IMG/VR virus record: IMGVR_UViG_3300037635_002786
Location: 1-43,522 of that record
DNA from: a virus
Length of the DNA stretch: 43,522 bases
Strand: one strand, 5' to 3'
The translations under genes and the position numbers were made by a program. Below, piece by piece: positions 16,217 through 40,027 of the stretch (its first letter is position 1; the number at the start of each line of letters is the position of its first letter). The notes under the pieces are model-generated. The model did not search any database. It was not told the origin of the DNA and saw nothing but the letters and a program-made list of their open reading frames with translations.

Positions 16217-18799
16217 CTATGGTTTCGACTCAAACTTCAGTCCATATCTTTTTATCCAATCCTTTACATATCTGTTGTTCCATCCCAAGAGCGTTGCGGC
16301 CTTGTCTACATCGTTGCCACTTTCGGCCATGGCCAACGCTACTCGTTCTCGTAGGGACTTACCTTCAAATAGTTTTCTCCTTCTTTCCATCTCAAGGGCT
16401 TCTTGTCTTATCCCTTCTGACTTCTCTTTTGCCTTCCTTTTTTCAATCGTCTTTATAGCAGTAGCCTCCCCTCTAGGTGATGGACGAATAGCTTCTCTAA
16501 CTTTTCTTCTTCTGGCTACCTTTTTGGCTGTTCGACCTTCTTCTAAATATTTACTTAGGTATTTAATTTGTTCTGACGGAGGTAATTTCTGAAACCTTTC
16601 TAAAAATTCCGTGAAGGGAATAGCCTCTCGTACCACCTCTAAAAGTTCAGGCTGAACACGTCCAGTTCGTGATAAAGATCCTTGAGGGATTTGTCTAATC
16701 CTTGGCTTGTTAAAACCTAGCTCAGTATACATCTTACTCAGACCCTTTTGTACACTATCTATATTGTAGTTTTGGAATTGACCTGTCTTTGCTAGACGGG
16801 CCACGCTATACTTCATTTGATAATTACCTGCCCTAGCAAGTTTATTGTATGCATCTAAGTCCCAGCCCTCACGGGCCATCCACTCTTCGGGGTTTATATC
16901 ACTGACTTTTTTCCAAACACTACCATCATCATGTGCCTCAATTCTTACTAAAATCTTTTCCTTGCCGCTTCCCTTAACCTCTACAAGATCACCGACATTA
17001 TAATCTTTATTTATACTTCCTCGACTTGTACCAGTCCTATCCCCACTCTTAATTAAATCCATGGTGGACTTACCTTTAAATTGAGGCTGCATATTCAATC
17101 CATATTGCCCATCTTTATAGTTCATTGGCATTACTTTAGAGTGGACCTTCGGAGGTATAACCTGCACACCCTTTCTACCTACTCGCATTATTCCAGTAGA
17201 CGGCAGATCTTCGAGACCTTCCAAGATGTTCTTGACAACTTGCCGTGGTGCTACTGGTTTCTCCTCCATAAATCCACGAGACTTACCTTCCAAGGCTTCG
17301 TCAAGAATACGCTCCTGTTGCTCTGCTTCAATCTTACTCTCTTTTGCCCAATCAACTTTTTCTTTTTTGACAAATGGCAGGGGTTCAAGTCCCCGTTCTT
17401 CCCGTACTTTGTCTCGAATACCACGTACCAGGCGTTGTTGGAGTTTATTTAGATTTTGCGGGTCTGCATTCGCAGCCTCCACCAAGGAGTCGTACTCTGA
17501 AGGTAATAGTTTACGGCCCTTCATTGACCCCATCATACGAGCAAAATGAGATTGGCCAAGGAGAGTTTTCCGTTCAGGGACACCTTCTGTAAATATTTTA
17601 TGGTATTCTTCGCCATGGTTTTTTAGTATATAATCTGCTTCGTCGTTAAATATTTTTATCTTCTGTTCGGGAGTAAGGTTTGGGTTGGCTTTTAGGCGTT
17701 CAATAAAACTTTGATTAGGTAGTAGTTGTCTGTTAATCCTAGTGTCAACTCCCACGCCGCCCTTAACAAAAAACTTTCTCATGTAACCAGGTAGCGTTTG
17801 CCGTTCGCTGGCCGGTAATTCTACCTCATAGGAACCAGGAGACCCTGCCCTCATATCAGGATCTGTCATAAAGCTTACTGCTTTCTCTTCTTTTATTATA
17901 TTTTCCTTTATTTCTTTCTCGATCCTAGCTTCTGCTTCTTTAGCTTTATCTATCTGTCGTTGGCCAAAGTAACTACCCTCTTTAATAGTTTCACTTTGTA
18001 TTGCCCCACGCCTTCCGCCCTCTTCCACGGCTCTTTCAATTTTATTTTTGTCCTCTACGAACCCTTCTCTTATAGCCCTCCACTCTGGGTGGTTCCGCAA
18101 TTCTCTGGGTATATTTTTTTGTCTCGCCCCAGTCTTAAGATTCATAAATTCATTTCCATCAGGAAGCCATTGCCAACCCAGTGCGGTTTCTATCTCTTTT
18201 CTTTTATCATCTCTAAGCCAAGCAGCTACAAGGTCTTCCTTCTCTTGCTGGGCACGCAGTGGGTTCAACTCTTTGGGGCCTAAACCAAGATCCTCAGACT
18301 CCTTCATCATTTTCCTTAACTGAGGTGTCAAGAGTTCAGGTTCTTCTATCTTGGTCTTTGGATACCCCCAGTGTTCATAATCACGTTTCGTTAATGGAAT
18401 TTTTCCTGTTACGTCACGTCCAGAGGGGTCTGGCTTGTCATACTTTTCTGGAAATTTCTTACGAGGACGCCCTCCACTCTTGCCCTTCTCAATAGGGCCA
18501 TACTTCTGTAAGTCCGACAGGGCTTGGCGTCCCCGTCGGGTAGCGAGGCCAGATATAATAGGAAGTAACCCCAGAATACCAAACCCTGATCTTGCAACTT
18601 CCTCCCCAGGAACTCCTTTGCCTTTGAGTAAAGACCTTAAAATATTTATACCACCTAGCCCTATATCAAAGACATCCTGTCCAAAACTTGTAGCAGGATT
18701 AAGTGCGACACCTAGTGCCAATAACGAATTTGAATAATCCGTTGCCTTATCTAACGCCGTGTCCGCACGTGACGTTAAGTCTTTGATACCGTTAGACAT
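16217..18799 (-). CDS. Large virion-associated protein with ASCH-like domain and Fis-type HTH tail (860 aa)
   Basis: Starts MSNGIKDL, the shared leader. The N-terminal 90 residues are hydrophobic in two stretches (SLLALGVALNPATSFG, GILGLLPIISGLA). At about 575-640, STMDLIKSGDRTGTSRG followed by YNVGDLVEVKGSGKEKILVRI resembles ASCH/PUA-like domains (K-S/T...G-x-K/R-T...R, then VGD-hydrophobic-V-hydrophobic), which bind RNA or modified bases. The last 45 residues (ERVALAMAESGNDVDKAATL, then LGWNNRYVKDWIKRYGL) match a Fis/NtrC C-terminal HTH. Probably DNA- or RNA-binding, and perhaps ejected with the genome. Domain calls moderate. Confidence 0.75.
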   Translation of the reverse strand: MSNGIKDLTSRADTALDKATDYSNSLLALGVALNPATSFGQDVFDIGLGGINILRSLLKGKGVPGEEVARSGFGILGLLPIISGLATRRGRQALSDLQKYGPIEKGKSGGRPRKKFPEKYDKPDPSGRDVTGKIPLTKRDYEHWGYPKTKIEEPELLTPQLRKMMKESEDLGLGPKELNPLRAQQEKEDLVAAWLRDDKRKEIETALGWQWLPDGNEFMNLKTGARQKNIPRELRNHPEWRAIREGFVEDKNKIERAVEEGGRRGAIQSETIKEGSYFGQRQIDKAKEAEARIEKEIKENIIKEEKAVSFMTDPDMRAGSPGSYEVELPASERQTLPGYMRKFFVKGGVGVDTRINRQLLPNQSFIERLKANPNLTPEQKIKIFNDEADYILKNHGEEYHKIFTEGVPERKTLLGQSHFARMMGSMKGRKLLPSEYDSLVEAANADPQNLNKLQQRLVRGIRDKVREERGLEPLPFVKKEKVDWAKESKIEAEQQERILDEALEGKSRGFMEEKPVAPRQVVKNILEGLEDLPSTGIMRVGRKGVQVIPPKVHSKVMPMNYKDGQYGLNMQPQFKGKSTMDLIKSGDRTGTSRGSINKDYNVGDLVEVKGSGKEKILVRIEAHDDGSVWKKVSDINPEEWMAREGWDLDAYNKLARAGNYQMKYSVARLAKTGQFQNYNIDSVQKGLSKMYTELGFNKPRIRQIPQGSLSRTGRVQPELLEVVREAIPFTEFLERFQKLPPSEQIKYLSKYLEEGRTAKKVARRRKVREAIRPSPRGEATAIKTIEKRKAKEKSEGIRQEALEMERRRKLFEGKSLRERVALAMAESGNDVDKAATLLGWNNRYVKDWIKRYGLKFESKP

Positions 18800-19314: not shown

Positions 19315-20261
19315 TATCTCCCACCTCTACGTTTTTTAAGAAGTAGCTTGTCCCTGTATAACAACGGAATTGCTTGGGGAATTACAATACTCGCCACTCC
19401 CTTAGCAATATCTGTTGCTGACGCATCGCTTAACGCATCTTTTGCTTGTTCAATTATGTTGCCCCCTTCAGTAGGGCGGATGGTTGTCGTGTTGCCATGA
19501 GTCAATATATTGATCGGATGATTTTTATATATGTCTCGCTCAAGCAGATTGTCTACCATTAATTTTAAATGAGGGGGAACCTGTTCTATATCCGCATCTG
19601 GATCTAAGGCGTGTGTTCTCTGTAAATATTGTACTGCTCCAGCAAAAGCATCAGCATATAACTGATCAGGTTGCCCTTGATAACGAGCTACTCTTTCCAT
19701 CTCGCCTGTCTTTGGGTTACGGCTTTCGTAGAAACCACCTTCAGGCATCTCTGCGGTCAGCCGGTATTGTTCGAGTGCGTCTGATATTTGCTTTCTTTCT
19801 TCAAACCCTTCTCTGTCATCGAACGACCGCCTAAAATCGTCATGATGCCCAAACTCATGAGCTAACGTCCGCCTTCCTGAAAGATAACGGTCAGATTCAG
19901 GATCGAACTCACCTCTTGGAAAATATTCATCGTACATAACAATTTTGTCTGGGCTTCCCCGTTGTGCATACGCCCTAGCCGCTTCTGGGGTATGCACATC
20001 GTCCTCTTGATATGGACGAAACGCTACCTGCACAGGGCCACGATCTTCTCGTTGCACCATAGCTTGTAGGCTGTCAGCAAGTCCCATCATCTCTGATGGC
20101 ACATTAAAGTGACTTGAAGCATGGCTAGTAAGCTCAGTCTCTTCTGCTTCTGGACCCTTTTTTGTAAGTGCGTCTATTACTTTTGTAATAATACTCGAAG
20201 GGTCTTTTGGACGCAGTCTCCTGGGCTTGTCTGGGTTCAAACCTCTAATACCGTTAGCCAT
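19314..20261 (-). CDS. HExxH zinc metalloprotease with virion leader (315 aa)
   Basis: Starts MANGIRGL, the shared leader. HEFGHHDD (H135, E136, H139) is a complete zincin site preceded by RRTLA, as in peptidases that open with a buried helix. YADAFAGAVQYL (about 201-212) may supply the third ligand (D203), as in families with a D/E in an AD-x-FA helix. A hydrophobic segment (IAKGVASIVIPQAIPLLY) and Lys/Arg-rich end follow. It overlaps the endolysin gene by 8 bases. It could cleave virion proteins at assembly or host proteins after ejection. Active-site call strong; substrate unknown. Confidence 0.82.
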   Translation of the reverse strand: MANGIRGLNPDKPRRLRPKDPSSIITKVIDALTKKGPEAEETELTSHASSHFNVPSEMMGLADSLQAMVQREDRGPVQVAFRPYQEDDVHTPEAARAYAQRGSPDKIVMYDEYFPRGEFDPESDRYLSGRRTLAHEFGHHDDFRRSFDDREGFEERKQISDALEQYRLTAEMPEGGFYESRNPKTGEMERVARYQGQPDQLYADAFAGAVQYLQRTHALDPDADIEQVPPHLKLMVDNLLERDIYKNHPINILTHGNTTTIRPTEGGNIIEQAKDALSDASATDIAKGVASIVIPQAIPLLYRDKLLLKKRRGGR

Positions 20262-20736
20262 TAGTGCCCCACCTCGCAGGAGATGGGCGTGCCATCATGC
20301 CCCTGCAGTCAACGTGTGTAAATGAATTGTATCTCCCGATACCCAATAGATCTGCTTGAGGATGTGTCTCTAGTAGGTCGGCCACCTCCTTGGGTGTCTT
20401 TCCTTTCTTGGTAACATCACAAGCTCCCAACGTAAGGTGCATTGAGTTGGGCACCCCACCGATTACTTCGTTGTATTCCCTGTCACGATACCAGGAATTA
20501 ATTAACACGGGTGCAATACCTTCTGCTTCCCGTAGCCATTCTAGTATTGAGATCAGCTTAAATGCATTCTCCAATAGGTGAAGAGATGGTGCCGTAAGTT
20601 CGACACCATGAGCAGTTCTGCCGACGTCACATATTTCTAGCGGAGAAAAATTATTTATTTCTCGTGCTGCTAACCGGCTTCCGCATACTTCTATCCAATC
20701 AGATTTCGTCATCTTCCCTAAACTTTGGATTGTCAT
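20254..20736 (-). CDS. Endolysin, M15-family peptidase
   Basis: 160 residues. SWYRDREYNEVIGG (R84), NSMHLTLGACDV (H100, D107) and SFTHVDCRG (H141, D143) are the zinc ligands and catalytic surroundings of M15 (VanY/peptidase M15_3-like) enzymes, which cleave peptide links in peptidoglycan. No signal peptide, so it needs the holin encoded just upstream. The start is uncertain: 20736 and an in-frame ATG at 20712 both lack a good ribosome site, and the shorter one would overlap the holin gene less. Length and motifs fit a single-domain lysin. Confidence 0.9.
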   Translation of the reverse strand: MTIQSLGKMTKSDWIEVCGSRLAAREINNFSPLEICDVGRTAHGVELTAPSLHLLENAFKLISILEWLREAEGIAPVLINSWYRDREYNEVIGGVPNSMHLTLGACDVTKKGKTPKEVADLLETHPQADLLGIGRYNSFTHVDCRGMMARPSPARWGTNG

Positions 20737-21038: not shown

Positions 21039-24000
21039 TTAAGGGAGAAACGATGGCCCTCGACCACCCGTTTCTTCTGTAAGTTCTTTGATTATCTTAT
21101 TTGCCTCATTGAACCATCTTATGCGTTCCTGTCGCAAGTCTTCTTTTCCTTCCGCCCGCTTCTTCTGGCCTTCTACTCCCTCGTACTCTCCTAAAATATC
21201 CAAGTTTCGCATAGATTGTTCCTCAGTCCTCAGTTCAAGCAACCGTTGTGCAATATCCTGTAATCCAGAATACGCATCTATTTCTAGTTCATGCTTATCG
21301 TAGTACTCCCGTGCCTGTTCTTCTGTAAACTGCCTGGATTCTACCATCGCATTATGATTCCTAGCAATCTGACCTACTTTTTCTAGCCATCCATAAACAC
21401 TTTCCTGATCGCCTCCTATGCCCTTATCGCTCATCCACATATTTTGACCCCAGTTGTCTTGCCAATCATCCTTGTCGTACTTGGTGCCTATCGTGGATAT
21501 GCCATGCTGTTCCATAGCTAACTTCTCTGCTGTTTCTTTAAGAAACATACCTATTGGTCCTATGGATGCTGAGATAGCGTATGCGACTTTATCAGGACTA
21601 GACAATGGAGTCTCACGTAAAAATGGAATCTGGTTAGCGATCCCTGCCATCCCTCTTGCCATTGGATCAGTGCCTGGACCCTGCTGAAGTATTGGTTGAA
21701 GTTGGTCACTATAGTAATCTACGATAGGTTGCTCTCTATATCTGTCTTCATTTCTTAACATATCATAAACAGGCGACAAAACTTGAGGTAGTAAAGGATA
21801 CCTGAAACCCTTTCTTATCGCATCAAAAGATTCTCTGGTAGCATCCTTCCAGCCATGACCTTCATCCAAGACTGCTTGTGTTATTTGTTGGGGAATAACT
21901 GTAGTTACTATCCCTAGTTCATGGGGCATAGGGTATCTCATATAGGTGCCATCACCTATAGGAATCAGCATATACTGTGAACGCTGTATTGGAGATAGAC
22001 GACTGAACTCCTCATCATCATCGTTCAGTAAGTAAAGCAACGATGCCACAGTTCCATGGACCATCATCCTAGCCCAAATCTTAGCACGATCCCGCTTCCA
22101 AAAAGGAAGAGCGTCCCACTCTGTACGAGTATACCCATAGTGTCCCGTCGTTGGGACATTTGTTGTATCACCCCTAAAGACAGTTCTCCAGGAAACACTT
22201 GCTCCCTGTAAAGCTCCATTAATAAATGGAGCTACGGCCGCCCACAACCTAACAAGAGGGCTACCCCCTGCTGTACCATAATTTATTTGTTCTATTGCAG
22301 AACGCTGGGCAGTTTCCCTATTCCCCGTCTTAGCCAGTTGCATCTGGAAGACTGCCTTTCTACCAGAAAGCTCTACATGGGACGATATAGTCCCCATCAT
22401 GTGCCATGCTAAAGGCACCCACTGCAATGGATTAACTACTTCTTTGAGTCCCCACCTATCGGGACTCATATAATCTATGGATGCCTTTAACGCCTTACTA
22501 GCTAGAGATAAAGGCTTCTTCGATTCGGCCATTTCTTTCATCAAACTTCCTTCAAAACTATCAGCTAGTGGGTCTCTAGTACTTTTTGCTTCTGTATAAT
22601 CAAAGCCAAAATCTCCCCCATGGTTTCTCACGAACATGACCGTATCGCTTGCTTTGTCCTTATCAATTAACGCCCCACTCGTGATCAAAGTTGGATCAGC
22701 GACGTTATTCAAAAGTTCCATGAAAAAGTTGACGCCCCCGTCACTAAACCCATGAAAGAACATACCTAGCATACCATCTCTCTGTAGGTTTCGTTCTATA
22801 AACCCTATGGATCTAGTCACCAGTTGCCGTACTGCATCCGAAGGAAACCTTAACATCTTCCAGTACCAACTATCCTTAACAGGCTCTGGCCCTTGACCAG
22901 CTATTACATTCCACAGTCTTTCTGGGCTGAACCCTATCTGCATGGCGGCCCTTACCACAGCTTTGTCATCCACCTCATAGATTTTTTCAATACCCTGCTG
23001 TTTCACACGTATATATCTATCTGGATTTGCTATAGCCGTGCTTCTTGAAACCTTGCCCGTTACATCCCTAGCCCTTCCCAGTGTTTCTTCATCACGTACA
23101 GCCCGATTTACCCAAATATTATTTGCTGAATCACGCAATACAGCCATTGCATTCATTGCATTATTTGCGAACAAGTCATCATGTATAGGTGACTCACTGG
23201 CCTTTCGACTCCTAGAAAGCAGATCATCACTAATTACCCTGGTGACATCCATCTGTCCATCTTCTAAAAATTCAGGAGCGATATACCTTGGGATATAGGG
23301 CATCTCTGTCAATATATCATACCTTTGCTTCGTGATCAGTTCAGCATTATAAGCTGTCTTTAAACTGTGATTTGTAAACTCATTAAGAACATCCCAAAAC
23401 TTTACAACTGGACTATTAATTTTTTCCGTGTGTAATATAAGGGCGTCTAGCTTTGCTTCGTAATCATTAGCACTCAGCCTGTCTCCTACTTTTTTCTTTG
23501 GAGGAATCGTATCGCCTTCTTTATAAACTGCGTCGGGGTCAACTTTTTTTGTTATTTTATTTATGTTTCTTTTGTCTGATCTATAACGACTTATATCCCT
23601 TTCCTTTTGTATTTTCTGTTCAGGCGTAACAGCCTCTCTCTTTAGCCAATAGTCATGTCGCCTCTTTTGCCATTGCAATGATTTGCCCAACCCGTAAAGA
23701 GTGGCTACCATCTGATCTTTCGGGGCACCATCTATAATTGCGAATATTGCATTCAGACCAGGAATCCTGTCCATGCCATATTTTTTCTTTAGCAAATCAC
23801 TTCGGACAGGTATAACCCTAAACATCCCCCTCTCTGCAGTTTCTCCTGTAAAGGTTACAGGACCATCATTCATCAAAGACTTAACATAATTACCAATATT
23901 ATCAGCTACACTTTTTGCCCACAGCGTATCAGACAAAGCAGGAATCGCTGTCATATCCAAGGCTTCGGCAACCTCTTTATTTAAGCGGGCGATAGGCTCG

Positions 24001-27000
24001 TTCGCATTAAACATAGCCTGTATTATTTTTTTATTAAACTTAGGTTCTAATTGTTTCTCAATATCTTTTCGGAAAATTCTCACAGCATCTGCAGGGCTAT
24101 CACCCCTACCCATAGACTCCCCAATAACCTCAAGAACCTTATCGAATGGTTCCTGCCCTTCGATATTCTGTGCGTCAGCTAGTTTTATAGTTTGTTCATC
24201 GAATATAGTCTGTCTTGCAAAGAACCTTGTATACTCAGAAGGCATAACATAAGGCTCTGCCCTGCCTTCTAAGATGTCTAAGGTATGGCTTAGAATTTCA
24301 GCCTGATCATCAGGTGAGCGTCCCAATTCTTCCGCCAATTCGCTTCTAACCTCTGTTAGGATTGCAGGAAATTCCGTGCCCCAAATACCCTTATCCTGAT
24401 TGTGCGTAATCGTAGATTCACCTGTATCTATTAATGCTTGTTGCGTCTCAGGATTTTGTCTGAACGACTCCAAAACTAATCGTTTCATTAATGGTATACT
24501 GTTTGCAGGATCTACCCTTTTACCTCTTATCTTAACTCCTTCCTTCCAATTCTTATTATATGTATCCGCATCAAAGGAGCCTGACTTTAATGTTTGATAG
24601 GCGTGTTCAACACTTACATATTTTCTTCCGTCTATTTCAAAGGGCCTTGATGCCAAGTTGCTTAGAGATGCATTTTCACCACTACCATACCAAACATTTA
24701 TTGGACCTAAGTCCAGTTCAAGCTGTTTACCTACTAAAGGAATTACTGTTCTATTCCCTTCTGATAACATTCTATAATGCTCTGCTTTGTCACTGAGTCT
24801 TTTAATCTCATCTGGAGGAAGAGGCACACTTTGCTGAATCATATTTCTGCGAGAAAGTATTCTCTTAGAAATAGCATCGACCTTCGCCTGTTCCATCTTT
24901 CGGTCTGCCTCATTCGTAGTGCTATCCCTTAAAGCTATAGCAGTCCGATACTCCTCCACTTCAGCATTGTTGGCATATCTCATCAGCCGTACTGCCCCAA
25001 CAGGAAGACCAGGTATCAATTCTTTTTCGTCAGACAACAAGCCTCGTTCAGCCCTAGCTCTTTGAGCAAGCTGGCCTGTTGACATATTCGTATAGATCTG
25101 CCAAATACTACCAATCTCTGCCTTCTGTACAGCCCTGGCTATGCCTCCAAACAAGCCCTCAGTATTAGTATAGATCTTGTCCATTGCATTAGACATAATT
25201 TTTTTCTGTACTGGAGCAAAGTCCTTGTTGGAAATCATCTCAGCAAAATAGTCTGATACAGCGTGCATAAGTGCGTCCTCTAAATTTGGGGCCACACCAT
25301 CCTTGTTAGTCATTTCAATCATCTTTGCTTCTAACCAAGTAAGGCCCCTACTAGCAGCCTCTGCATTTATAAAATCAGGTACAGTAGTATTAGCAACAAG
25401 CTTACCTGCCTGTTGTAATTCTGTTTCATTAAAGACTGTTCTCTGTATCGCATCAAAGATTTGAGGTCTAGCAATATTCCGCATGATCTCTGGACCTAAC
25501 GTCTTGATATCAATACGAGGATCTAGCGACGAGACATTATAAATAATTTCGGTAATAGGGCCGACCTCTCTTAACGCAACTGCTGCATCACCCATATCCC
25601 TACCTGCTATAAGCACATCGCTTAGTATTGAAAACTCACTATCTGCGTCAGCAACAATCCGTATCTTTACATCCTCCTGAAAATCCAAGGAGTTAACTAC
25701 ATCCTTTATATAACCTTCTATCTCCCGTAATTTCTTACCAGTAACTTCTATGACTGCCTGTCTCAACTGTTGCGAACCAGGATTCATTGTAGAAGGAATG
25801 GCACCCTTTAAGATAAGATCCTTGTATACTTCTCTAGCTGTTGCAGACTCAGACATTAACTCTGCAACAGGTTGCCTTCTTAAAATGGAACGAGTGCCGT
25901 GACCCAAAAGACCCAAGTTATCTAGCTGTCGCATACCGAAACTATCGGCAAGATACGGTGCCAGCATATCCAGGAACTGCCTCGTAGTTACCGGCTTAAG
26001 ATTTTTATTCCTCTTCTCTGTTTTTTCGTTGTACTCATCCGTCATTATCCTAACTTTTTGAGAGTGTTCCTTGTCTCTCAAAATATCTTTTATCATTTCA
26101 GGCTTAGACTCAGAGGCCCAGTAAGCATCTGCAGTTATTTCGGTGCCTGTTTCAGTATCAAGCCTTACCGTATTTTCATCTGCTACAAGAATCTTTGATT
26201 CCAGCACCCTTGCAATAGCTTCACCAAACACACCCTTATCAAACGTCTCACTGCCCAAGGCTAACTCTACCTCATCAGATAATTGAGATATGTCTTTGTC
26301 GAGCCTGGGAAGAGGCACCTCAAAAGCAACAGGTGCCTCTCTATCTGCCAGTTTAACGTCCCTATTTAATGCTGCCATTTGACTAACTATTTCATCAACG
26401 TGTGCATCCAGTGCTGGATCTTCATACATATCCATAAGATAGTTTTCTTTCCTAATACGTACCTTTGGAATACGTGCCAGACTGAAATAGATTAGTGCCT
26501 TCTGAGCAGGGGTTGCCTTGCTCCACTGATCTACTGCTGCGAGATCACGCAACAGCCTACGAAACGGCAAGCTGTTTACTCCCGTACCACCAGCATAGGC
26601 CACCTTTTTAATCTTTCCCTCAAGATCCTTAAGGCTTCCGTCTCCTCGTAAAAAATAATTTTTTGAGCGAAGAAGATTTATTATATCTTTATCTGTAACA
26701 GCATTCTCAGGGTTCTTGGCAATTTTTTTTCTAACACCGTCCACCAACTCACGAGTTTCCTCGTTAAGGGTCGCTAAGATTGGGGGGGTCGCAAGGCGGT
26801 TACGTTCCTCAAGGTCAACGTCTGCATCTATTCTATCTGCCAGCACCTCACTAAACACCGTATTTCTCTTTGGCTTGCTTGCAACCAATAGGTCAACAAT
26901 ACGCTTGGCATCCTGTGCAGGGATATTACTAGAAAATATTTTATTTGATAAACTACCCTGTAACTGGGCCTCTTGCTGAGATGCTTGTCTTTCTATCTGA

Positions 27001-29444
27001 CGCATTTGGTCTGGCCTAATATCTTCTTCTCGTGCAATCTTTTCATCTCGCATCAACCGAGTAAGAATATCTTTCTCTATCTTGCTTACTTTCACATTCG
27101 CAAATCCACCATCTATCTCTTGATCATGGTCAACTGAATACTTCCGCACCAACTCAGTTTTTTCAAGTAAACGATTTATTTGATCTATAGTATTAGAGGC
27201 ATCTATATCATGCTGTGCCAAGCTATTCGTCATACCAGATAGCCAGAAACTAAGTTGTTCTGGGGTTGCGAATCCAAGTTCTTTTGCAACTTTTTGCTGT
27301 AACTTCTCATCATTCAAAAGTATATCTGATGCATTCTTAAGCTGGTTATTCAAAAAGTTTATATGAAGTCTTTTATCTGTGTTATCTAAAGCTTCTCCTT
27401 CTTCCTGAAGCTGATTGTCACCAAGAAAAATATTTTCCATATTGGAAAGTGTTGCTTCTGGATCAGAGCCTCCAATAGGATTTTCTGTATAGAGTGTCTC
27501 ATGTCTTTTTTGCAAGCCTTCCCTGCTTTGAGCAACTACCTCTAACTCTTTGGTAGCGTCAGTCATTTTCATTTCAGGTCTAAAGACACCAATATTTAAC
27601 GCTAACGCCCTAGCAATTTGAGAAGGACTAAAGCTCGCATTGTCGCTCGCAGCTTTAGTTTTGTCTATCTTTACGGGAATAGAAACTTGTTCATCTATAA
27701 ACTCTATTCTTTCTTCATCTAAGTTGGTGTCTACATCCTGTGAGCTTCTGCCTCCATGAATACCAAGTATTTCTTCCAAAGCAAAACTACCCTCAAGGCC
27801 ACCCTCACTTCCCATTGCATACACCCACTCAGAATTACTAACTTCTTCTAGTGCATCTACCTCTATGGCATTGAGTGATCGTGCACTGTCGATCTCTTTT
27901 ATGCGAGATTCCTTTTTATCCTGGTATTGCTCAGACGCTGTAAGTCCCCCATTGTCATAATTATGTCTTTGTGCATTACCAAGTATTTCCTCGATACCTT
28001 GCATTCGCTTAGATGCTTCTTCACGAATCAAAGCTATAACCTGGTTTTGTTCTTCGCCTTCTATAGACGGATCAGCTATTACAGATTGCTCTAAGGTTTT
28101 GTAATATCTTTGAAATCTATTGTACTCTCTTTCAAGACTTTTAAAGTCTGTGTGGGAACTTTGTAAACCCTGTAATATGGTTTCATTTGTGGGTATGTCC
28201 ATATTTTTTTCTATGTTTTCCCAGACTGCAATTACTTCTTCTGACACTCCTTTCTCACGTAGTCTTTGTCCAACATTTTGAACATACTCTTCTCTATTTG
28301 AAAGACTATAACCGTGATCCCTTTCAAATCGTCTAAGCTCTACTTCTGCTGAAGCATCACTATTTCTATCACCGCCTGAACCATGTTTACCAGGCAACAT
28401 AGCTCGCACCAACGAAGCTATAGCACCTGCTGCACCACCCACTACAAACTCTTGTTCAGCTTCTTTAGCCCAGTTCTCAAACGCTTGAGGATCATAGGCT
28501 TTTGCAACCAATGTTTGTGCTACTCCTGCGGTTGCTTCCTGTGTTCCTTCTCCCAGTCCACCTCTCAATGCAGATCCTATCGGGGCAAGCCGTCCAGGTA
28601 ATGCCCTTTGAACAGGCCAAAATTTTCGATTAAACCCATATCTACCAATCTTAAGTGGCAAAACTTCAGTAAGGCCAATAACTCCACCAGCAGTAATGGC
28701 AGACAGTTCAGACATCCAAGGAAGATCCCTGCCCGATCTACGCTCATATTCATGGAATCTATCTGCCTGGGTTTCAAAGCCCATCCCTGCACCCATCGCC
28801 AAACTAGCCAAACCTACAGTTCCTAAGACTGGAAGAGAAACAACAGCACCTGGTACAGCTAATGCGGCTAAACCAGCTACACCAGCAAAGGCACCAAGCT
28901 GGCCCATAGCACCAGAGATTGCAGTACCCATTCTTCCTTGATACCGTGGATCGGCCTCTAAACCAGGAAGTACTCCTCTATCAATAATATCTTTTAATGT
29001 TTCTTCAAACGGCAACTCAATATCCGGTGTAGCCCAATTCAAAAAACCCTTTAAACCACGTAAAGGTGTAGTCAATAATTCCCTAACAGGGGCTTTTGCC
29101 ACATCCTTGGCATAGCCTGGGTCTTCTTTGAGTGCCTTCAGAAAGTCCAGAGGATTGTACGAGGCTCCAACACGCTCTACAGTATCTAATGGATTGTGCT
29201 GTTGTAAGATATATCCTGGTAAACCACCACTTCGCTGGAAAGGCTGTAGTGTTTTAAGCCAATCGATATCCTGTGGTTGCTGCGTATTAATTAATTGTCT
29301 TAAATCTAAGGAATCGGGCGTGCTACCACTTACAATATTGTTATAATCTGCTTCAGGTATTTCCTGTGTAGTCCCATCGCTAAGATAAAGGGTACGCATA
29401 CGTTGTTGTCCAGGCTTCTGTAATCCAAAAATGCCATTAGACAT
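21039..29444 (-). CDS. Giant 2801-residue polyvalent virion protein with NADAR domain
   Basis: Starts MSNGIFGLQ, the shared leader. Residues about 165-225 are strongly hydrophobic and Gly/Ala-rich (possible membrane insertion). Residues about 1290-1400 look like a zincin that lost its site: LGPEIMRNIARPQIF stands where HExxH would be, and DALMHAVSDYFAEM where the downstream acidic helix would be. Residues about 1578-1698 match NADAR (YbiA-like): NVWYGSGENASLSNLASRPF, YVSVEHAYQTLKSG, KRLVLESFRQNPETQQALID and NQDKGIWGTEF. The last 600 residues (RTEWDALPFWKRDRAKIWAR, IGDGTYMRYPMPHELG) resemble LPD38, common at the end of large phage polyvalent proteins. Most likely an ejected internal virion protein. 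Confidence 0.88.
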   Translation of the reverse strand: MSNGIFGLQKPGQQRMRTLYLSDGTTQEIPEADYNNIVSGSTPDSLDLRQLINTQQPQDIDWLKTLQPFQRSGGLPGYILQQHNPLDTVERVGASYNPLDFLKALKEDPGYAKDVAKAPVRELLTTPLRGLKGFLNWATPDIELPFEETLKDIIDRGVLPGLEADPRYQGRMGTAISGAMGQLGAFAGVAGLAALAVPGAVVSLPVLGTVGLASLAMGAGMGFETQADRFHEYERRSGRDLPWMSELSAITAGGVIGLTEVLPLKIGRYGFNRKFWPVQRALPGRLAPIGSALRGGLGEGTQEATAGVAQTLVAKAYDPQAFENWAKEAEQEFVVGGAAGAIASLVRAMLPGKHGSGGDRNSDASAEVELRRFERDHGYSLSNREEYVQNVGQRLREKGVSEEVIAVWENIEKNMDIPTNETILQGLQSSHTDFKSLEREYNRFQRYYKTLEQSVIADPSIEGEEQNQVIALIREEASKRMQGIEEILGNAQRHNYDNGGLTASEQYQDKKESRIKEIDSARSLNAIEVDALEEVSNSEWVYAMGSEGGLEGSFALEEILGIHGGRSSQDVDTNLDEERIEFIDEQVSIPVKIDKTKAASDNASFSPSQIARALALNIGVFRPEMKMTDATKELEVVAQSREGLQKRHETLYTENPIGGSDPEATLSNMENIFLGDNQLQEEGEALDNTDKRLHINFLNNQLKNASDILLNDEKLQQKVAKELGFATPEQLSFWLSGMTNSLAQHDIDASNTIDQINRLLEKTELVRKYSVDHDQEIDGGFANVKVSKIEKDILTRLMRDEKIAREEDIRPDQMRQIERQASQQEAQLQGSLSNKIFSSNIPAQDAKRIVDLLVASKPKRNTVFSEVLADRIDADVDLEERNRLATPPILATLNEETRELVDGVRKKIAKNPENAVTDKDIINLLRSKNYFLRGDGSLKDLEGKIKKVAYAGGTGVNSLPFRRLLRDLAAVDQWSKATPAQKALIYFSLARIPKVRIRKENYLMDMYEDPALDAHVDEIVSQMAALNRDVKLADREAPVAFEVPLPRLDKDISQLSDEVELALGSETFDKGVFGEAIARVLESKILVADENTVRLDTETGTEITADAYWASESKPEMIKDILRDKEHSQKVRIMTDEYNEKTEKRNKNLKPVTTRQFLDMLAPYLADSFGMRQLDNLGLLGHGTRSILRRQPVAELMSESATAREVYKDLILKGAIPSTMNPGSQQLRQAVIEVTGKKLREIEGYIKDVVNSLDFQEDVKIRIVADADSEFSILSDVLIAGRDMGDAAVALREVGPITEIIYNVSSLDPRIDIKTLGPEIMRNIARPQIFDAIQRTVFNETELQQAGKLVANTTVPDFINAEAASRGLTWLEAKMIEMTNKDGVAPNLEDALMHAVSDYFAEMISNKDFAPVQKKIMSNAMDKIYTNTEGLFGGIARAVQKAEIGSIWQIYTNMSTGQLAQRARAERGLLSDEKELIPGLPVGAVRLMRYANNAEVEEYRTAIALRDSTTNEADRKMEQAKVDAISKRILSRRNMIQQSVPLPPDEIKRLSDKAEHYRMLSEGNRTVIPLVGKQLELDLGPINVWYGSGENASLSNLASRPFEIDGRKYVSVEHAYQTLKSGSFDADTYNKNWKEGVKIRGKRVDPANSIPLMKRLVLESFRQNPETQQALIDTGESTITHNQDKGIWGTEFPAILTEVRSELAEELGRSPDDQAEILSHTLDILEGRAEPYVMPSEYTRFFARQTIFDEQTIKLADAQNIEGQEPFDKVLEVIGESMGRGDSPADAVRIFRKDIEKQLEPKFNKKIIQAMFNANEPIARLNKEVAEALDMTAIPALSDTLWAKSVADNIGNYVKSLMNDGPVTFTGETAERGMFRVIPVRSDLLKKKYGMDRIPGLNAIFAIIDGAPKDQMVATLYGLGKSLQWQKRRHDYWLKREAVTPEQKIQKERDISRYRSDKRNINKITKKVDPDAVYKEGDTIPPKKKVGDRLSANDYEAKLDALILHTEKINSPVVKFWDVLNEFTNHSLKTAYNAELITKQRYDILTEMPYIPRYIAPEFLEDGQMDVTRVISDDLLSRSRKASESPIHDDLFANNAMNAMAVLRDSANNIWVNRAVRDEETLGRARDVTGKVSRSTAIANPDRYIRVKQQGIEKIYEVDDKAVVRAAMQIGFSPERLWNVIAGQGPEPVKDSWYWKMLRFPSDAVRQLVTRSIGFIERNLQRDGMLGMFFHGFSDGGVNFFMELLNNVADPTLITSGALIDKDKASDTVMFVRNHGGDFGFDYTEAKSTRDPLADSFEGSLMKEMAESKKPLSLASKALKASIDYMSPDRWGLKEVVNPLQWVPLAWHMMGTISSHVELSGRKAVFQMQLAKTGNRETAQRSAIEQINYGTAGGSPLVRLWAAVAPFINGALQGASVSWRTVFRGDTTNVPTTGHYGYTRTEWDALPFWKRDRAKIWARMMVHGTVASLLYLLNDDDEEFSRLSPIQRSQYMLIPIGDGTYMRYPMPHELGIVTTVIPQQITQAVLDEGHGWKDATRESFDAIRKGFRYPLLPQVLSPVYDMLRNEDRYREQPIVDYYSDQLQPILQQGPGTDPMARGMAGIANQIPFLRETPLSSPDKVAYAISASIGPIGMFLKETAEKLAMEQHGISTIGTKYDKDDWQDNWGQNMWMSDKGIGGDQESVYGWLEKVGQIARNHNAMVESRQFTEEQAREYYDKHELEIDAYSGLQDIAQRLLELRTEEQSMRNLDILGEYEGVEGQKKRAEGKEDLRQERIRWFNEANKIIKELTEETGGRGPSFLP

Positions 29445-29447
29445 AAT

Positions 29448-30890
29448 TTAATATCTAGGCTCGTCAGCCACTGAAGAACGCATATTTGCATTAAAGATTA
29501 CATCAACCATATCAACCAGCCTACCTAATTCATCTTCAACAATCTCTTCATTTTTGCCAGTTAAACTTGTCGCAAGTATTCTTAAATCACTTATAATAGA
29601 AGCCAGGGAAGCCGGAGTTACCCGTTTTCCTGCTTCAATAGTGGCTCGAACTTCTTCTGCACGTTGTAAAAGTTCCGCCGCCTTTATCTGATCGGCTCGG
29701 TCAGCAGTTATCATTGCCTGTTTCAGTCCAGCCTCTAACTCAAACAATGACTGCCTACTACGATTTGCAGCCTCATCAAACGAGGTTAACCTACCTGTAT
29801 CAATTAGTCCCTGCAGGTCTGCTATTTCTCCTCGCTGTTCTCCCTTGCGTTTCCATATAGCTGATATAGAGTCACCGTAATCATCTTTCAGCAGTAGATT
29901 GTTTATGAATGCTTGTGTTTTCATATCTTCTATCTCTTGAGCATGACTTCCTCTTAAGAGTCCTAACTCCTCTTCCTGTCTTCCAAAGATTTCTTCACGT
30001 GCCAATCTTCTGTCCCTTTCTTCGGGAGTTTCCTCTTGTCGTCTTTTTTCTTCGTCGGCAATTAAACTTAAAAGACCCGTTGCACTCCCTGCACCTTCAC
30101 TCGGTGTCATTAAATCAATTATTGCATTTTCAAATCTATCCATATAGTTGCCAGAAGGATCTTCAGTATTTTGTCTACCATATCTTCTTATGAATTGTGC
30201 TGGTAATCGCCCTGCATACTGACGCCAAACTTCATCATCACTCATTCCTGTTTCAGGTGATTCTATAGGTTCCTGAACAATACGACGTCCCATCCAATCC
30301 CGTTCTACCTTATCTGACTCGTCAGCATCATTCTCAAACAAGGCTCTCACTTCACTAGCTTCTGGGGAGCGTAATTTTCCCGCAAAAGGCTCCATATCTG
30401 CACTAGTTGTAAAAGGTGCAGGGACTGATCCAACTGCATTTGCGATATCCATAAGATCCCCCATCCATTCATAACCTGCCGGCATATTATCTCTAAAATC
30501 ATAAATATTAGGATTGAATGCTTCAGGATCGTCACCTTCAAAATGAGTATCTATTCCATGTACATGGGGAGCAATATTACCACCAGAATGATAGCCTGGA
30601 ATTATACCGCCCTGGGCAAACTGACCTATATCTGTCGGCATTTCGCCCATTTCTCCTGGCATGACCGGCTGTTGCATACCTTCCTGCATACCCTGCAACT
30701 TCTGGTCTCTAATAGTATTAGTATTAACCTGTGGTTTTGTATCAGGATTTCTTGAGGCAACCTCAATTAAAACAGGTGCCTCCATTAATTCCAATTCCTT
30801 CATCATCTCAGGATTTTGCAGGAGCTTTTGCAAGTACTCATTAGTTACACCGCTTAATAATTCGCTTTGTTGATGTAGACTGAGTGCCAT
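29448..30890 (-). CDS. Internal virion protein with GGIIPGYHSGG motif (480 aa)
   Basis: The N-terminus is helical (LLQNPEMMKELELMEAPVLI) followed by a Gln/Met-rich linker and GGIIPGYHSGG (94-104), a layout common in internal virion proteins of environmental podoviruses as I recall them. The remaining part is helical and charged (about 270-440, coiled coil). Starts 2 bases from the neighbouring gene's control region. It lacks the N-terminal GIxGL leader of its neighbours. Structural role inferred. Confidence 0.75.
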   Translation of the reverse strand: MALSLHQQSELLSGVTNEYLQKLLQNPEMMKELELMEAPVLIEVASRNPDTKPQVNTNTIRDQKLQGMQEGMQQPVMPGEMGEMPTDIGQFAQGGIIPGYHSGGNIAPHVHGIDTHFEGDDPEAFNPNIYDFRDNMPAGYEWMGDLMDIANAVGSVPAPFTTSADMEPFAGKLRSPEASEVRALFENDADESDKVERDWMGRRIVQEPIESPETGMSDDEVWRQYAGRLPAQFIRRYGRQNTEDPSGNYMDRFENAIIDLMTPSEGAGSATGLLSLIADEEKRRQEETPEERDRRLAREEIFGRQEEELGLLRGSHAQEIEDMKTQAFINNLLLKDDYGDSISAIWKRKGEQRGEIADLQGLIDTGRLTSFDEAANRSRQSLFELEAGLKQAMITADRADQIKAAELLQRAEEVRATIEAGKRVTPASLASIISDLRILATSLTGKNEEIVEDELGRLVDMVDVIFNANMRSSVADEPRY

Positions 30891-30892
30891 GA

Positions 30893-32116
30893 TTATCTCC
30901 TCATCCCTCTAAGGAATTGACTATACATCGGACCCACTATACCCCCATGTCTCTGGCCTGGTATATTTTGTGTTGTCTGGGAACCAGTAACATCAGCCGT
31001 AGTTTTAGCCCAATCAGTCGGCTGTTCTCCATAGCTTGTCTGAGTCACTCCTCCCTTATAAGGCATCTTACTCATAGCTTGAGTTTGCCAGTCTATATTT
31101 TTCCGTTCCTGATCTAGGCGATTCTGGAAATCCTGATATCCAACATCTAAGGACTTCTGTTGTAGGTCACGACGCTGTTGTCCAACCATACCCAAGTCAC
31201 CCAGCCTCTGCCTTTGCTGTGCTTGCTGTTGTCCCCCAAGGGTAGTCTGTGCTTGCCCTGCCCCTAGTGCGGCCTGTCTATCAGCTTGTAGGGCTTGCTG
31301 TGCAGACTCAAACGCCTTTTGTTGTCCAGTACCAATGATGTCCGCCGCTTGCTGTGAGGTATCCATGGCTTGTTGCTGTTGCATCACGCCTTGGCGATAG
31401 CCTCCAAACGCTCCTGATCCCGCAGCCTGTGATCCAATATTTTGCATTTGCTGTTGATTAAACTGAGCCAACTGTCTCAACTGAGGGTCTGTTACATTCT
31501 GTGTGTACTGACTCATATACGGATCTAAGCTACCTGCTGTTGACTGTTGTTGTCCTGCAGTCTGTAGGCTTGTTTGTGCATCAATAGTGCCCTGTGGACC
31601 CTGGCCAGTAGAATAGGCTTCTGTTGCTTGCTGTGCTGCGATTTCCTGTGGAGTAAATCCTGCAAGTCTTTGCCCTCCGTAAGGAGTATACTCACGAGAT
31701 CCTTCATCTACTACACGATCTGTAAGATCTGCCCATTGCTGTTCGGTCTGTACAGGCACACCATAGTCATAAGTCTGTACTGATGAGGGAGTCGGACCAC
31801 CATCCTCATACCCAGGAATAATACCACCAGATGCTCTACCCCTTAAATAGTTAGCCAAGTCTATCCACCAAGGTTTATCTTCTAACATAGGGCGTTCACC
31901 ACGCTGTACGCCAAGAGAGTCAAGCCATATCATATTTTCTAACCATCTATCTCTTTCGGTTGGTTCTGGAAATTCATGTCCTGCCATTTCCAATAGCATA
32001 CGAGTAGTCCTATCGGGATCTCTCATCTGTTGCCGATACCGAAATTCCGCCCTAGCTGAATCAGATTGATCTGGATATACTTGACCGCCACGTTGTAACC
32101 CCATTATACCACGCAT
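30893..32116 (-). CDS. Gln-rich internal virion protein with leader and GGIIPGYEDGG motif (407 aa)
   Basis: Starts MRGIMGLQRGG. GGIIPGYEDGG occurs at 97-107, and RHGGIVGPMY near the end. The central part is a Gln/Ala-rich helical region; SQAAGSGAFGGYRQGVMQQQ and IIGTGQQKAFESAQQALQAD are signatures I associate with core/internal virion proteins of short-tailed marine phages. It carries both shared signals, leader and internal motif, linking the two groups. Probably part of an ejected core. Confidence 0.78.
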   Translation of the reverse strand: MRGIMGLQRGGQVYPDQSDSARAEFRYRQQMRDPDRTTRMLLEMAGHEFPEPTERDRWLENMIWLDSLGVQRGERPMLEDKPWWIDLANYLRGRASGGIIPGYEDGGPTPSSVQTYDYGVPVQTEQQWADLTDRVVDEGSREYTPYGGQRLAGFTPQEIAAQQATEAYSTGQGPQGTIDAQTSLQTAGQQQSTAGSLDPYMSQYTQNVTDPQLRQLAQFNQQQMQNIGSQAAGSGAFGGYRQGVMQQQQAMDTSQQAADIIGTGQQKAFESAQQALQADRQAALGAGQAQTTLGGQQQAQQRQRLGDLGMVGQQRRDLQQKSLDVGYQDFQNRLDQERKNIDWQTQAMSKMPYKGGVTQTSYGEQPTDWAKTTADVTGSQTTQNIPGQRHGGIVGPMYSQFLRGMRR

Positions 32117-32140
32117 AATTTTCTCACAGGTTTAATTCTT

Positions 32141-34183
32141 TTATATGACTCTATCTAAATTATTTGTAAAGCTATTCCAGACTTCTTCACCTGGCGGTGT
32201 GTCTGGAGGAATTGCTTCTGCTGCTTCTACCATATCTTCAGGATCAGATTTTAGAGTCTGATTCGCAGTTATAATAAATTCATTAGGAGCTAATGCCGCT
32301 ACGACATCAACTGGCCCACCATTTTCTAGCCTATCCTGAAAATCTTCTTCTACTAAATCGTCCTTACTTACAGCAACCCTATCGTCTACGGCACCGCTAC
32401 TTTCCATACCACCATCTGCAAACTCTGGTATATATCCCTTAGTTACGATACCACCAGTATTCATTTGCTGTGTACCCCCAACTTGTTGTATCATCGCCGC
32501 CATTTCCTGTGGATACTGTTGTGCTAAGATTTGTAAAATCTCATTAGATTCCATAGATGGATTCATTAATGCTTCTCTAACAATTTCCATCAACTCTGGA
32601 GGCATCGTTCCTGTCATACCACCTTCTTGGTATCCAGGTATCATTCCACCTTTTGCTACCGTAGCAACAGGTGTTCTATCTATAGGAGGTTGTTCCAGCC
32701 TATTAACTAGATCTGCATACCGTGAACCTGCTTCTGGACTGCCAAGAGGAGCAAACGGATCGGCTCCATGCTCTATACTTCCACCAGTTGTACGTGCAGT
32801 TTCTGGCATAAATCCTGCTCTATATCCTTCAGCAGTAGGTCTCAAATCTCTTGGATCTGCTGCCCTCTCAGACGTTCCTGGCATTATAGGTTTTTTAAAG
32901 GTAGGATACTCATATCCTGGCCCCATATCTGTGCCATGCCCAGACTCTCCAGTATATAAAAATTCAACAGGATCTGGAGCTTCTCCTTTTTCATCTTTAA
33001 ATCCCTCTGGAGCTTCACCACCACCGTCGGGATCTGGCTCTGCACCTACTGGATTTTCAAGTAACGGATCTGGCCCTTCTAGCTGTCTGCGGGTTTCTTC
33101 TGCTATTTTTCTAGCTCGTTCATCAATCTGTGCTTGCGTAGGATTAGGTCCAAGATCTGGCCCATAAGGATTTTCATTTACTGGGGGTACCGTAGGAGTT
33201 GAGCTAATAGTGTCGTCTGTAAATGCAGTAGTCCTTCCAATATCTCCTATATCAACTTCTCCTTCTCCTTCCCCCTCTGCACCTGGTGCGGGCATTATAG
33301 GACTAGATTTTAAAGCTTCAAGGCGTTGCCTTTCAAGACGATCTCTTTCTCTTTGTGCAGCCATTTCTTGTTGTGCACGTCTATCACGCATCTCTTGAGC
33401 TTCTTTCGCTCTAAGTTCACTTAATCTACGATCACGTTCTGGATCTGCGAATCTATAATCATGTCCATACATCCCTGGCTCATCATACTCTCCACCATTT
33501 TCATAACCAGGAAGGATTCCACCATTTACCATTCTTACCAAAGTGTTTGCATAACCCTGCCTACTACTATCTATAGGGACAGCACTGGCAGTCCTGCCTT
33601 CACCCCCTCCAGTTGCCGGCATTATAATATCGGGATTCATTCTGCCAAATTGATTTAGTATATCTGCTTGAGTTTGATTATCTAAGCTACCTATTAATGT
33701 CATTAGAGTACGATTTTTAGGATCAGTATAATAATCTACTCCACCCTTAAAGACATCCGTTAGGCTTTTAGGGTTCTTCCACAAGCTTCCTAAACCAAAT
33801 TCATTTTCATCAAAACTTTTTGACAATTCAGAAACTTCAACTGAATCACCACCATATTTCGCTCTAGCTTCATTAAGTAGATCCTGTTGTTCTTCAAGAC
33901 CAGGCACTCCTGACGCCTTGGCCATTCCTGCCTTTAGTGCCTGATCAAACATCAAATTCTTGGCTCCGCCCACCAATGACTGCTTCCAGCTTTTGCCTTC
34001 CAGTTTGTCCTTAAGAATACCTGCTGGTACACCTATGTAGGGATTCATATAGCTCAATGCCTGTGGACCCACATCCTTAAGAAGGTCGAATAGGCCCCCT
34101 GTTAGTCCCCCAAAAAATCCACCTACTCCATAATGGGGCAATCTAGTGATTCCGCCACCTCTATAACTTGGATACCTATTCAT
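32141..34183 (-). CDS. Internal virion protein with several GGI-PGY motifs (680 aa)
   Basis: Begins MNRYPSYRGGGITRLPHYGV. A hydrophobic Gly-rich segment (GVGGFFGGLTGGLFDLL) and ALSYMNPYIGVPAGILKDKL recall N-termini of phage internal proteins. The middle is Pro/Glu/Gly-rich and probably disordered. GGILPGYENGG (about 221-231), GGMIPGYQEGG (about 510-520) and a variant GGIVTKGYIPEFADGG (about 575-590) repeat the motif of its neighbours. The end contains NEFIITANQTLKSDPEDM. No enzymatic motif. Structural or ejected role inferred from company. Confidence 0.75.
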   Translation of the reverse strand: MNRYPSYRGGGITRLPHYGVGGFFGGLTGGLFDLLKDVGPQALSYMNPYIGVPAGILKDKLEGKSWKQSLVGGAKNLMFDQALKAGMAKASGVPGLEEQQDLLNEARAKYGGDSVEVSELSKSFDENEFGLGSLWKNPKSLTDVFKGGVDYYTDPKNRTLMTLIGSLDNQTQADILNQFGRMNPDIIMPATGGGEGRTASAVPIDSSRQGYANTLVRMVNGGILPGYENGGEYDEPGMYGHDYRFADPERDRRLSELRAKEAQEMRDRRAQQEMAAQRERDRLERQRLEALKSSPIMPAPGAEGEGEGEVDIGDIGRTTAFTDDTISSTPTVPPVNENPYGPDLGPNPTQAQIDERARKIAEETRRQLEGPDPLLENPVGAEPDPDGGGEAPEGFKDEKGEAPDPVEFLYTGESGHGTDMGPGYEYPTFKKPIMPGTSERAADPRDLRPTAEGYRAGFMPETARTTGGSIEHGADPFAPLGSPEAGSRYADLVNRLEQPPIDRTPVATVAKGGMIPGYQEGGMTGTMPPELMEIVREALMNPSMESNEILQILAQQYPQEMAAMIQQVGGTQQMNTGGIVTKGYIPEFADGGMESSGAVDDRVAVSKDDLVEEDFQDRLENGGPVDVVAALAPNEFIITANQTLKSDPEDMVEAAEAIPPDTPPGEEVWNSFTNNLDRVI

Positions 34184-34184
34184 A

Positions 34185-34514
34185 TTAACTCGTCTCTACA
34201 CCAAAGATGCTAAACGACATACTGCCCGAACTGGCGTATACCGTAACTACATCATCATCACTTAAGGTCATACCTATAATCAAAAATGCAGAATCATTCG
34301 CTGCTACAGACTTGTCATAATATATATATTGTTTCTGCTCTATAGCGGCTCCCATGGGGCGAACAGCCAATCTAAAGGTAACGGCACTACCTGTTTGATT
34401 ACAGACTACTATAGAGCTAACAGTAGTTTGTGTATCTTCTGGCACGGAGTATAAGTCCGTGTTTGTTGTAGCCGATGGAGCTAGTTGCCCCAGTACTTTA
34501 AAGCTATCAGCCAT
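34185..34514 (-). CDS. Small beta-rich structural protein (109 aa)
   Basis: All-beta sequence: KVLGQLAPSATTNTDLYSVP, TVSSIVVCNQTGSAVTFRLA, KQYIYYDKSV, and a final SMSFSIFGVE. This is a recurring small phage virion protein, probably a tail or fibre accessory domain (immunoglobulin- or jelly-roll-like). Its start overlaps the end of the next gene. Exact position in the particle unknown. Confidence 0.75.
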   Translation of the reverse strand: MADSFKVLGQLAPSATTNTDLYSVPEDTQTTVSSIVVCNQTGSAVTFRLAVRPMGAAIEQKQYIYYDKSVAANDSAFLIIGMTLSDDDVVTVYASSGSMSFSIFGVETS

Positions 34515-34710
34515 TACTAGCTCCTAGCAATAAGAACTGGTATTTACGTAATGCCAAAGAAGCATCCTTATCAATGTATTGTTTTTGTGCATTCATGTCC
34601 GTGCTAACATCTTCAAAGTTTTGCTCTATAGTTCTTCGAGAAATACCTTCGTCATGTTGTTGATATTCAGGAGGTGCTACGTTTAGTGCCCTGTACTGTT
34701 TAATGGTCAT
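34507..34710 (-). CDS. Small hypothetical virion-region protein (67 aa)
   Basis: YRALNVAPPEYQQHDEGISR followed by a helical DVSTDMNAQKQYIDKD stretch and a short hydrophobic end (YQFLLLGASNG). It overlaps the tail hub gene by ATGA. Short helical proteins of this form commonly lie between tail genes in related phages. Function unknown. Confidence 0.65.
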   Translation of the reverse strand: MTIKQYRALNVAPPEYQQHDEGISRRTIEQNFEDVSTDMNAQKQYIDKDASLALRKYQFLLLGASNG

Positions 34711-37103: not shown

Positions 37104-37119
37104 ATAAGTATTCCTATCA

Positions 37120-37332
37120 TTATTTGCTAGATATTCTTTCCTTAAGATTCGCTGTCTCAGCTTCTATAGATGCCAGACGTTCTCCATGTGTATCTACCTT
37201 TGATCCAATACGATTTACAGTACGCTCTATCTGAGCGAGGGACTGTCTAGTCCCATTTAATCCAGCTTTAACTCCGCCATAAGCGGCCCCTGCTGCAGCT
37301 GGTATAGCGAGCAGAGATACTAAATTCATCAT
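37120..37332 (-). CDS. Small membrane/coiled-coil protein (70-74 aa)
   Basis: One Ala/Gly-rich hydrophobic segment (LVSLLAIPAAAGAAYGGV) and a coiled coil (LAQIERTVNRIGSKVDTHGERL). GGAAAG lies 4 bases before the ATG at 37332 and 7 before the next ATG (37329), so these are preferred to the ATG at 37344, which has no ribosome site. Located between fibre and hub genes. Possibly a virion or membrane accessory protein. Confidence 0.65.
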   Translation of the reverse strand: MMNLVSLLAIPAAAGAAYGGVKAGLNGTRQSLAQIERTVNRIGSKVDTHGERLASIEAETANLKERISSK

Positions 37333-37346
37333 TTCACTTTCCATTT

Positions 37347-39236: not shown

Positions 39237-39261
39237 TATATTTTCCTAGCTAAAAATAATT

Positions 39262-40026: not shown

Positions 40027-40027
40027 A

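Follow-up and report, generated by a model that had tools for sequence, protein, structure and literature searches.

The closest described relatives of the domain reported here are T4 gp30.3 and YbiA of the YbiA/NADAR superfamily, both of which are small, free-standing proteins. In the NADARs studied so far, the distal ribose and the phosphates are held by a Glu-Lys pair with a spacing of seven residues, and close to the ribose there is a third residue, which is Glu in the YbiA type, Asp in the BC4488/DarT1 type and His in the phage type (PMC11543638, PMC11125620). T4 gp30.3, a phage-type NADAR, hydrolyses guanine-linked ADP-ribose in vitro (PMC11125620). Phage NADARs have been described as typically standalone and argued to act mainly on soluble ADP-ribose derivatives, and their packaging into virions was already proposed as possible in the abstract of the same paper (PMC9503650). 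Polyvalent proteins, known since Iyer et al. (2017, PMC5512222), are late-gene polypeptides that each unite several domains. That paper, whose main text does not contain the word NADAR, places LPD38 (large polyvalent protein associated domain 38) exclusively in polyvalent proteins of the phage type, and these are presumed to be injected. T7 and N4 have three ejection proteins, the largest being the last to enter (background in PMC12633501), the N4 virion RNA polymerase gp50 is packaged and ejected (PMC12633501), and gp50 of crAss001 has been detected in virions by mass spectrometry (PMC10172136). Our literature search, which covered openly accessible main texts, found no report of a NADAR inside virion RNA polymerases, LPD38 giants or polyvalent giants.

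The window analysed here, that is the whole stretch of 43,522 nucleotides, is a 43.5-kb phage fragment (an IMG/VR virus record). It bears a giant ORF of 2801 codons at 21039-29444 (minus strand), which is open throughout, as the earlier note had read it. Its main features and its downstream neighbour are as follows.

21039-29444, minus strand: giant ORF, probable polyvalent/ejection protein of 2801 aa with LPD38 and NADAR, third gene of a conserved cassette
28788-28910, minus strand: long hydrophobic stretch near the N terminus (residues 179-219, hydropathy scan), a possible membrane segment
24327-24701, minus strand: NADAR domain, residues ~1582-1706 (Pfam/PHROG; AF2 model with pLDDT 90; fold match to 8bau, 2b3w and 8bat)
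21153-23435, minus strand: conserved C-terminal module, residues ~2004-2764 (blastp to LPD38 loci), common to LPD38 giants of 1900-3770 aa
21501-22016, minus strand: LPD38 domain (Pfam PF18857, E-value = 7e-22; 1.2e-24 in a second search)
20254-20736, minus strand: endolysin (PHROG 894), just downstream of the giant

Comparison of the whole protein with all Pfam families led to two domains, NADAR at residues 1590-1692 and LPD38 at residues 2477-2647. The giant thus unites at least two unrelated domains, an LPD included, in one large polypeptide, and the genes around it (ejection protein, tail fibre, virion structural proteins, endolysin) are of the virion/late type, as is characteristic of polyvalent proteins of the LPD38 type. 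The AF2 model of the C-terminal LPD38 module is mostly helical and of low confidence (pLDDT 61). No virion RNA polymerase domain was detected in the giant by Pfam or by a profile search for the N4-type enzyme, and an N4-type RNA polymerase was ruled out for the window, where it had no match. Elsewhere in the window, an 860-aa protein at 16217-18799 (minus strand) matches a NADAR-bearing giant of another contig (L086) over residues ~557-678 (E-value = 3e-10), a segment that may be ASCH-like, to judge from its appearance. A metallopeptidase/VWA-like DUF2201 protein is located at 1107-2501 (plus strand), adjoining an unannotated 320-aa ORF at 114-1076.

Upstream of the giant two further genes complete the cassette.

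30893-32116, minus strand: DNA ejection protein of 407 aa (PHROG 4287), first gene of the cassette, with homologues upstream of 11 other LPD38 giants
29448-30890, minus strand: middle gene of the cassette, 480 aa, between the ejection protein and the giant, conserved in position

A profile scan of IMG/VR for LPD38, of which the best 80 loci were kept, showed that residues ~2004-2764 of the giant match the C-terminal part of LPD38 giants, most of them 1900-3770 aa long (the few shorter ORFs are cut by contig ends), while the part upstream is not common to them. A search of IMG/VR with the giant's C terminus as a single sequence led to no close relatives, and an alignment was needed in order to find them. 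The order of an ejection protein, a gene of 400-592 aa and an LPD38 giant is repeated in all 11 other loci with a recognised first gene. In the window, the middle gene shares its position, but no detectable homology, with the middle genes of the other LPD38 loci, and a candidate relationship by descent was rejected, the match not being significant; the ejection protein had no match in INPHARED. Contig L015 is 99.8% identical over 27660-40698 of the window and confirms the upstream cassette together with ~595 N-terminal residues of the giant, but does not extend to NADAR. Among 16 LPD38 giants, the cargo domains include ddrB-ParB, zeta toxin, InPase, ART-PolyVal, PBECR1, RadC and helicases. NADAR is present in none of the best 80 LPD38 relatives, and consequently the exact pairing of NADAR with LPD38 rests on one record. 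As the product of the last of three genes, the window's giant may be comparable to the largest protein of the T7 gp14-15-16 and N4 ejection cassettes, a likeness of gene order. Together, gene order and LPD38 indicate that the giant is probably an ejected virion protein; the earlier note had inferred a virion protein, and this reading is now well supported, albeit indirectly.

Concerning the NADAR assignment, the Pfam NADAR model (PF08719) matches residues 1590-1692 with an E-value of 1.1e-4 when the whole protein is compared with all Pfam families, and with an E-value of 5.9e-8 in a single-family search of the record. The score of 23-28 bits lies below the curated cut-off of 35.1, which is a database threshold and not a defining feature of the biology; T4-like phage NADARs have a separate Pfam model (Phage_30_3), and close relatives of the window's NADAR likewise score low. 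Because of this low raw score the assignment was tested further by profile, model and fold comparison. PHROG 1017 matches the same segment (E-value = 2.2e-9), tblastn matches it to the NADAR of a crAss-like phage, annotated as DUF1768 in GenBank (E-value = 4e-14), and relatives in IMG/VR are 55-57% identical to it. A profile built from a 46-sequence alignment of such IMG/VR relatives gave two credible matches only among the PDB sequences, namely YbiA (2b3w, E-value = 5.9e-9) and a Phytophthora NADAR (8bau, E-value = 7.6e-4). The profile was needed for this, as phmmer with the single domain found only YbiA in the PDB (E-value = 0.02); a single-domain search of bacterial genomes (GTDB) found no relative. 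The AlphaFold model of the segment has a mean pLDDT of 90.3 and a pTM of 0.85. In Foldseek the top three places went to the three solved NADARs, YbiA alone being below an E-value of 0.001, and VIA-align gave Z-scores of 13.2 (8bau), 13.0 (YbiA, 2b3w) and 7.9 (8bat), the next chain reaching 2.5. On profile and model grounds, residues ~1582-1706 of the giant are assigned as a NADAR domain with the YbiA fold. This bears out the NADAR claim of the earlier note on all of these lines (Pfam, PHROG, PDB profile, AlphaFold model and fold match), including the comparison of a predicted structure with YbiA/NADAR structures that it had called for; the motifs it quoted are located at residues 1593-1692, and its coordinates, 24350-24712 (residues ~1578-1698), agree to ~10 residues with the folded domain at ~24327-24701.

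Three positions of the catalytic site were examined.

24606-24608, minus strand: Glu1613, catalytic (E43/E88 of studied NADARs), invariant in the 46-row alignment, T4 gp30.3 and YbiA (role: PMC11543638)
24585-24587, minus strand: Lys1620, phosphate-binding (K50/K95), invariant in the 46-row alignment (role: PMC11543638)
24402-24404, minus strand: His1681, invariant, which marks phage-type NADARs in place of Glu/Asp (PMC11543638, PMC11125620)

Glu1613 and Lys1620 are seven residues apart, as in the E43/K50 type, and His1681 aligns with the His of T4 gp30.3 at the third position, where E, D or, in phages, H is found. All three are kept in the 45 embedded and 32 standalone relatives that align over these positions. 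The earlier note had named the absence of the family's catalytic residues as evidence against its claim; all three tested positions are intact, and the enzyme domain within the giant is apparently intact as judged from the alignment and the model. The window's NADAR has the same fold (Z of 13) and the same E, K and H positions as T4 gp30.3 and YbiA and is 21% identical to each of them in the alignment, but it is a domain of a 2801-aa virion-cassette protein, in contrast to those small proteins and to the standalone form typical of phage NADARs.

We also scanned IMG/VR with a NADAR profile and kept the best 80 loci. In 44 of them NADAR is embedded, meaning that the ORF which contains it measures 600 aa or more; these ORFs range from 672 to more than 6000 aa (median ~2750), the longest being open at the contig end. 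Another 34 are free-standing (among them L036 and L037, which read as 38-aa ORFs and are frame-interrupted), and the remaining two are fragments. With NADAR masked, the 45 giants, the window's included, sort into ~20 groups that lack overall similarity to one another, and blastp links the window's giant to none of the other 44. Specifically, a giant of at least 3285 aa (L002) contains NADAR, a SLOG-like cpYpsA domain and DUF4326, and NADAR alone, at 53% identity, is significantly common to it and the window's giant. SLOG accompanies NADAR in the L085 giant and DUF4326 does so in the L023 giant. The NADAR giant of L065 (2645-13051), with L070 in the same backbone group, carries an AlkB-like 2OG oxygenase and an SF1 helicase, a domain set that suggests a nucleic-acid repair package. 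Partners such as SLOG, DUF4326, the AlkB-like oxygenase and the helicase are in line with roles in ADP-ribose or nucleic-acid repair. In the best NADAR tree (134 columns) at least six changes between embedded and free forms are required, compared with ~26 when labels are shuffled, and well-supported branches force one only; the number of independent fusions was for this reason judged from the unrelated backbones and not from the tree. Embedded NADARs cluster on the tree, which suggests exchange of NADAR between giants. By sequence, what appears to be the same NADAR enzyme is thus present inside about 20 unrelated giant phage proteins, known injected RNA polymerases among them.

Delivery into the host has its firmest basis in two cases among these giants, those of L024 and of a crAss-like phage. 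The 3937-aa protein of L024 (6365-18178) has NADAR at residues 1221-1317 and four virion RNA polymerase domains at 1797-2541. Its polymerase part matches gp50 of coliphage N4 (E-value = 3e-136) and also aligns with many Schitoviridae-type records. L039 is a second contig with NADAR and an N4-type virion RNA polymerase, L069 is a weaker case, and the PHROG 2220 family is established upstream of L024, L027, L040 and L079 alike. The window's giant would resemble gp50 of the Schitoviridae, to whose polymerase L024 fuses NADAR, in a suggested role as giant last ejection protein, but no RNA polymerase domain could be detected in it. In the crAss-like phage cr126_1 (MT774391.1, 5509-12717; L012), a 2402-aa protein contains NADAR at residues ~54-201. 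The orthologous proteins of Kolpuevirus 'frurule', cr106_1 and DAC15, at 75-87% identity, lack a stretch that corresponds almost exactly to residues ~39-208, which reveals NADAR as a clean insertion of ~165 residues in cr126_1. Homology to crAss001 gp50 extends along most of the cr126_1 giant (30% identity over 1342 aa, E-value = 1e-138); this backbone is unrelated to that of the window's giant, and the genetic context differs. In phages cr130_1 and cr131_1, NADAR is found close to the C-terminal end of other giants related to gp50. Reading TAG as Gln leaves the frames of cr130_1 (NC_055901.1, 13777-31182, 5801 aa) and cr131_1 (NC_055902.1, 61111-65316, 1401 aa) open, while under table 11 the NADAR segment of cr130_1 has an in-frame stop. 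The N4-type, crAss gp50-type and LPD38 cases show that NADAR has been built into no fewer than three unrelated types of giant, which, to judge from their relatives, are or are likely to be ejected.

The reading that we favour, at a probability of about two in three, is that of an ejected LPD38 giant carrying a phage-type NADAR as enzymatic cargo that de-ADP-ribosylates from the start of infection. Its computed basis consists of the fold, the catalytic residues, the gene order and the recurrence in unrelated ejected giants; from these we infer the packaging and ejection of the window's giant, the activity of its NADAR, the substrate and an anti-defence role. The giant would be an ejection protein of a tailed, probably short-tailed phage, carried in the head and released into the host along with the DNA, with the folded NADAR set between a variable N-terminal part and the conserved LPD38 C-terminal module. 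In the cytoplasm, NADAR would hydrolyse the N-glycosidic bond that joins ADP-ribose to a base (guanine in DNA or RNA), or act on a related ADP-ribose derivative. De-ADP-ribosylation would then be available from the first moments of infection and, if the giant is ejected, NADAR would act before any gene is expressed. More tentatively, and at somewhat less than even odds, many unrelated phages may have independently fused a de-ADP-ribosylating enzyme into their first-injected giants, virion RNA polymerases included, so as to clear the incoming DNA or the first transcripts of ADP-ribose during entry and ahead of any phage gene expression; this would represent a virion-borne, pre-emptive counter to ADP-ribosylation defence.

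Regarding the target, a DarT-type modification of DNA and soluble ADP-ribose derivatives carry about equal weight, and either one taken singly is doubtful. As an anti-DarT1-like antitoxin, NADAR would strip the incoming phage DNA of ADP-ribose attached to its guanines by a host toxin. Enzymes of this family undo the ADP-ribosylation of guanine, and in vitro the T4 NADAR, which has the same His, works on DNA modified in this way (PMC11543638, PMC11125620); moreover, the catalytic residues are conserved and delivery with the DNA would put the enzyme where it is needed. DarT1-NADAR toxin-antitoxin operons would be comparable in enzyme family and in vitro family chemistry, but they have a linked DarT and a catalytic Asp (D171 type), whereas the window's NADAR has His1681 and the DarT family (PF14487) has no match at E-value ≤ 1 in the record, itself a fragment. 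Additionally, neither T4 gp30.3 nor YbiA protected E. coli from DarT1 in vivo (PMC11125620). What stands of the anti-DarT idea of the earlier note is a NADAR with three intact catalytic positions in a probably ejected giant, with homologues in packaged-type giants, while DarT is no more than a possible target. Degradation of soluble NAD-derived signals or toxins (cyclic ADP-ribose variants, ADP-ribose-1''-phosphate) from TIR, SIR2 or RES-type defences has been proposed for phage NADARs generally (PMC9503650). The SLOG and DUF4326 partners of related NADAR giants agree with this, but the window's giant has neither, and the NADARs tested so far hydrolyse guanine-linked ADP-ribose. We know of no tests of NADARs on cyclic ADP-ribose variants or ADP-ribose-1''-phosphate.

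Protection or repair of RNA or protein during take-over, for instance by reversing the ART of the phage itself or of a co-infecting one, appears improbable: ARTs are common cargo of LPD38 giants and other polyvalent proteins (PMC5512222), but no polyvalent ART was detected in the record (the contig being a fragment). It is still harder to credit that the giant is a late product with a structural or scaffolding function that never leaves the cell or head, its NADAR being inactive or vestigial. As ejection and activity are probable rather than certain here, some room is left for this explanation; nevertheless, the catalytic triad is invariant in all embedded relatives that align there, the order of the ejection cassette is conserved and homologous NADARs are found inside packaged RNA polymerases. 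Finally, an artefact of metagenome assembly joining NADAR to the giant has a next to negligible probability. The exact architecture is known from a single record and the GC content is 0.399 in the NADAR segment versus 0.423 in the ORF, but the flanking 1 kb on either side has 0.394 and 0.422, the ORF is open throughout, and this class of architecture is found in dozens of contigs, including eight near-identical loci (L080, L082-L085, L087-L089).

The phage genes that counter ADP-ribosylation defence are mostly pictured as early-expressed. If injected, NADAR would act before transcription. Its recurrence in N4-type RNA polymerases, crAss-type RNA polymerases and LPD38 giants suggests that its presence at entry is strongly selected. 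Phage cr126_1 itself is uncultured, but the cultured Bacteroides phages DAC15 and frurule hold natural insertion-free counterparts of its giant and so open the question to a direct test. Apart from its impact on defence, such cargo would also partly explain the unexplained bulk of giant ejection proteins.
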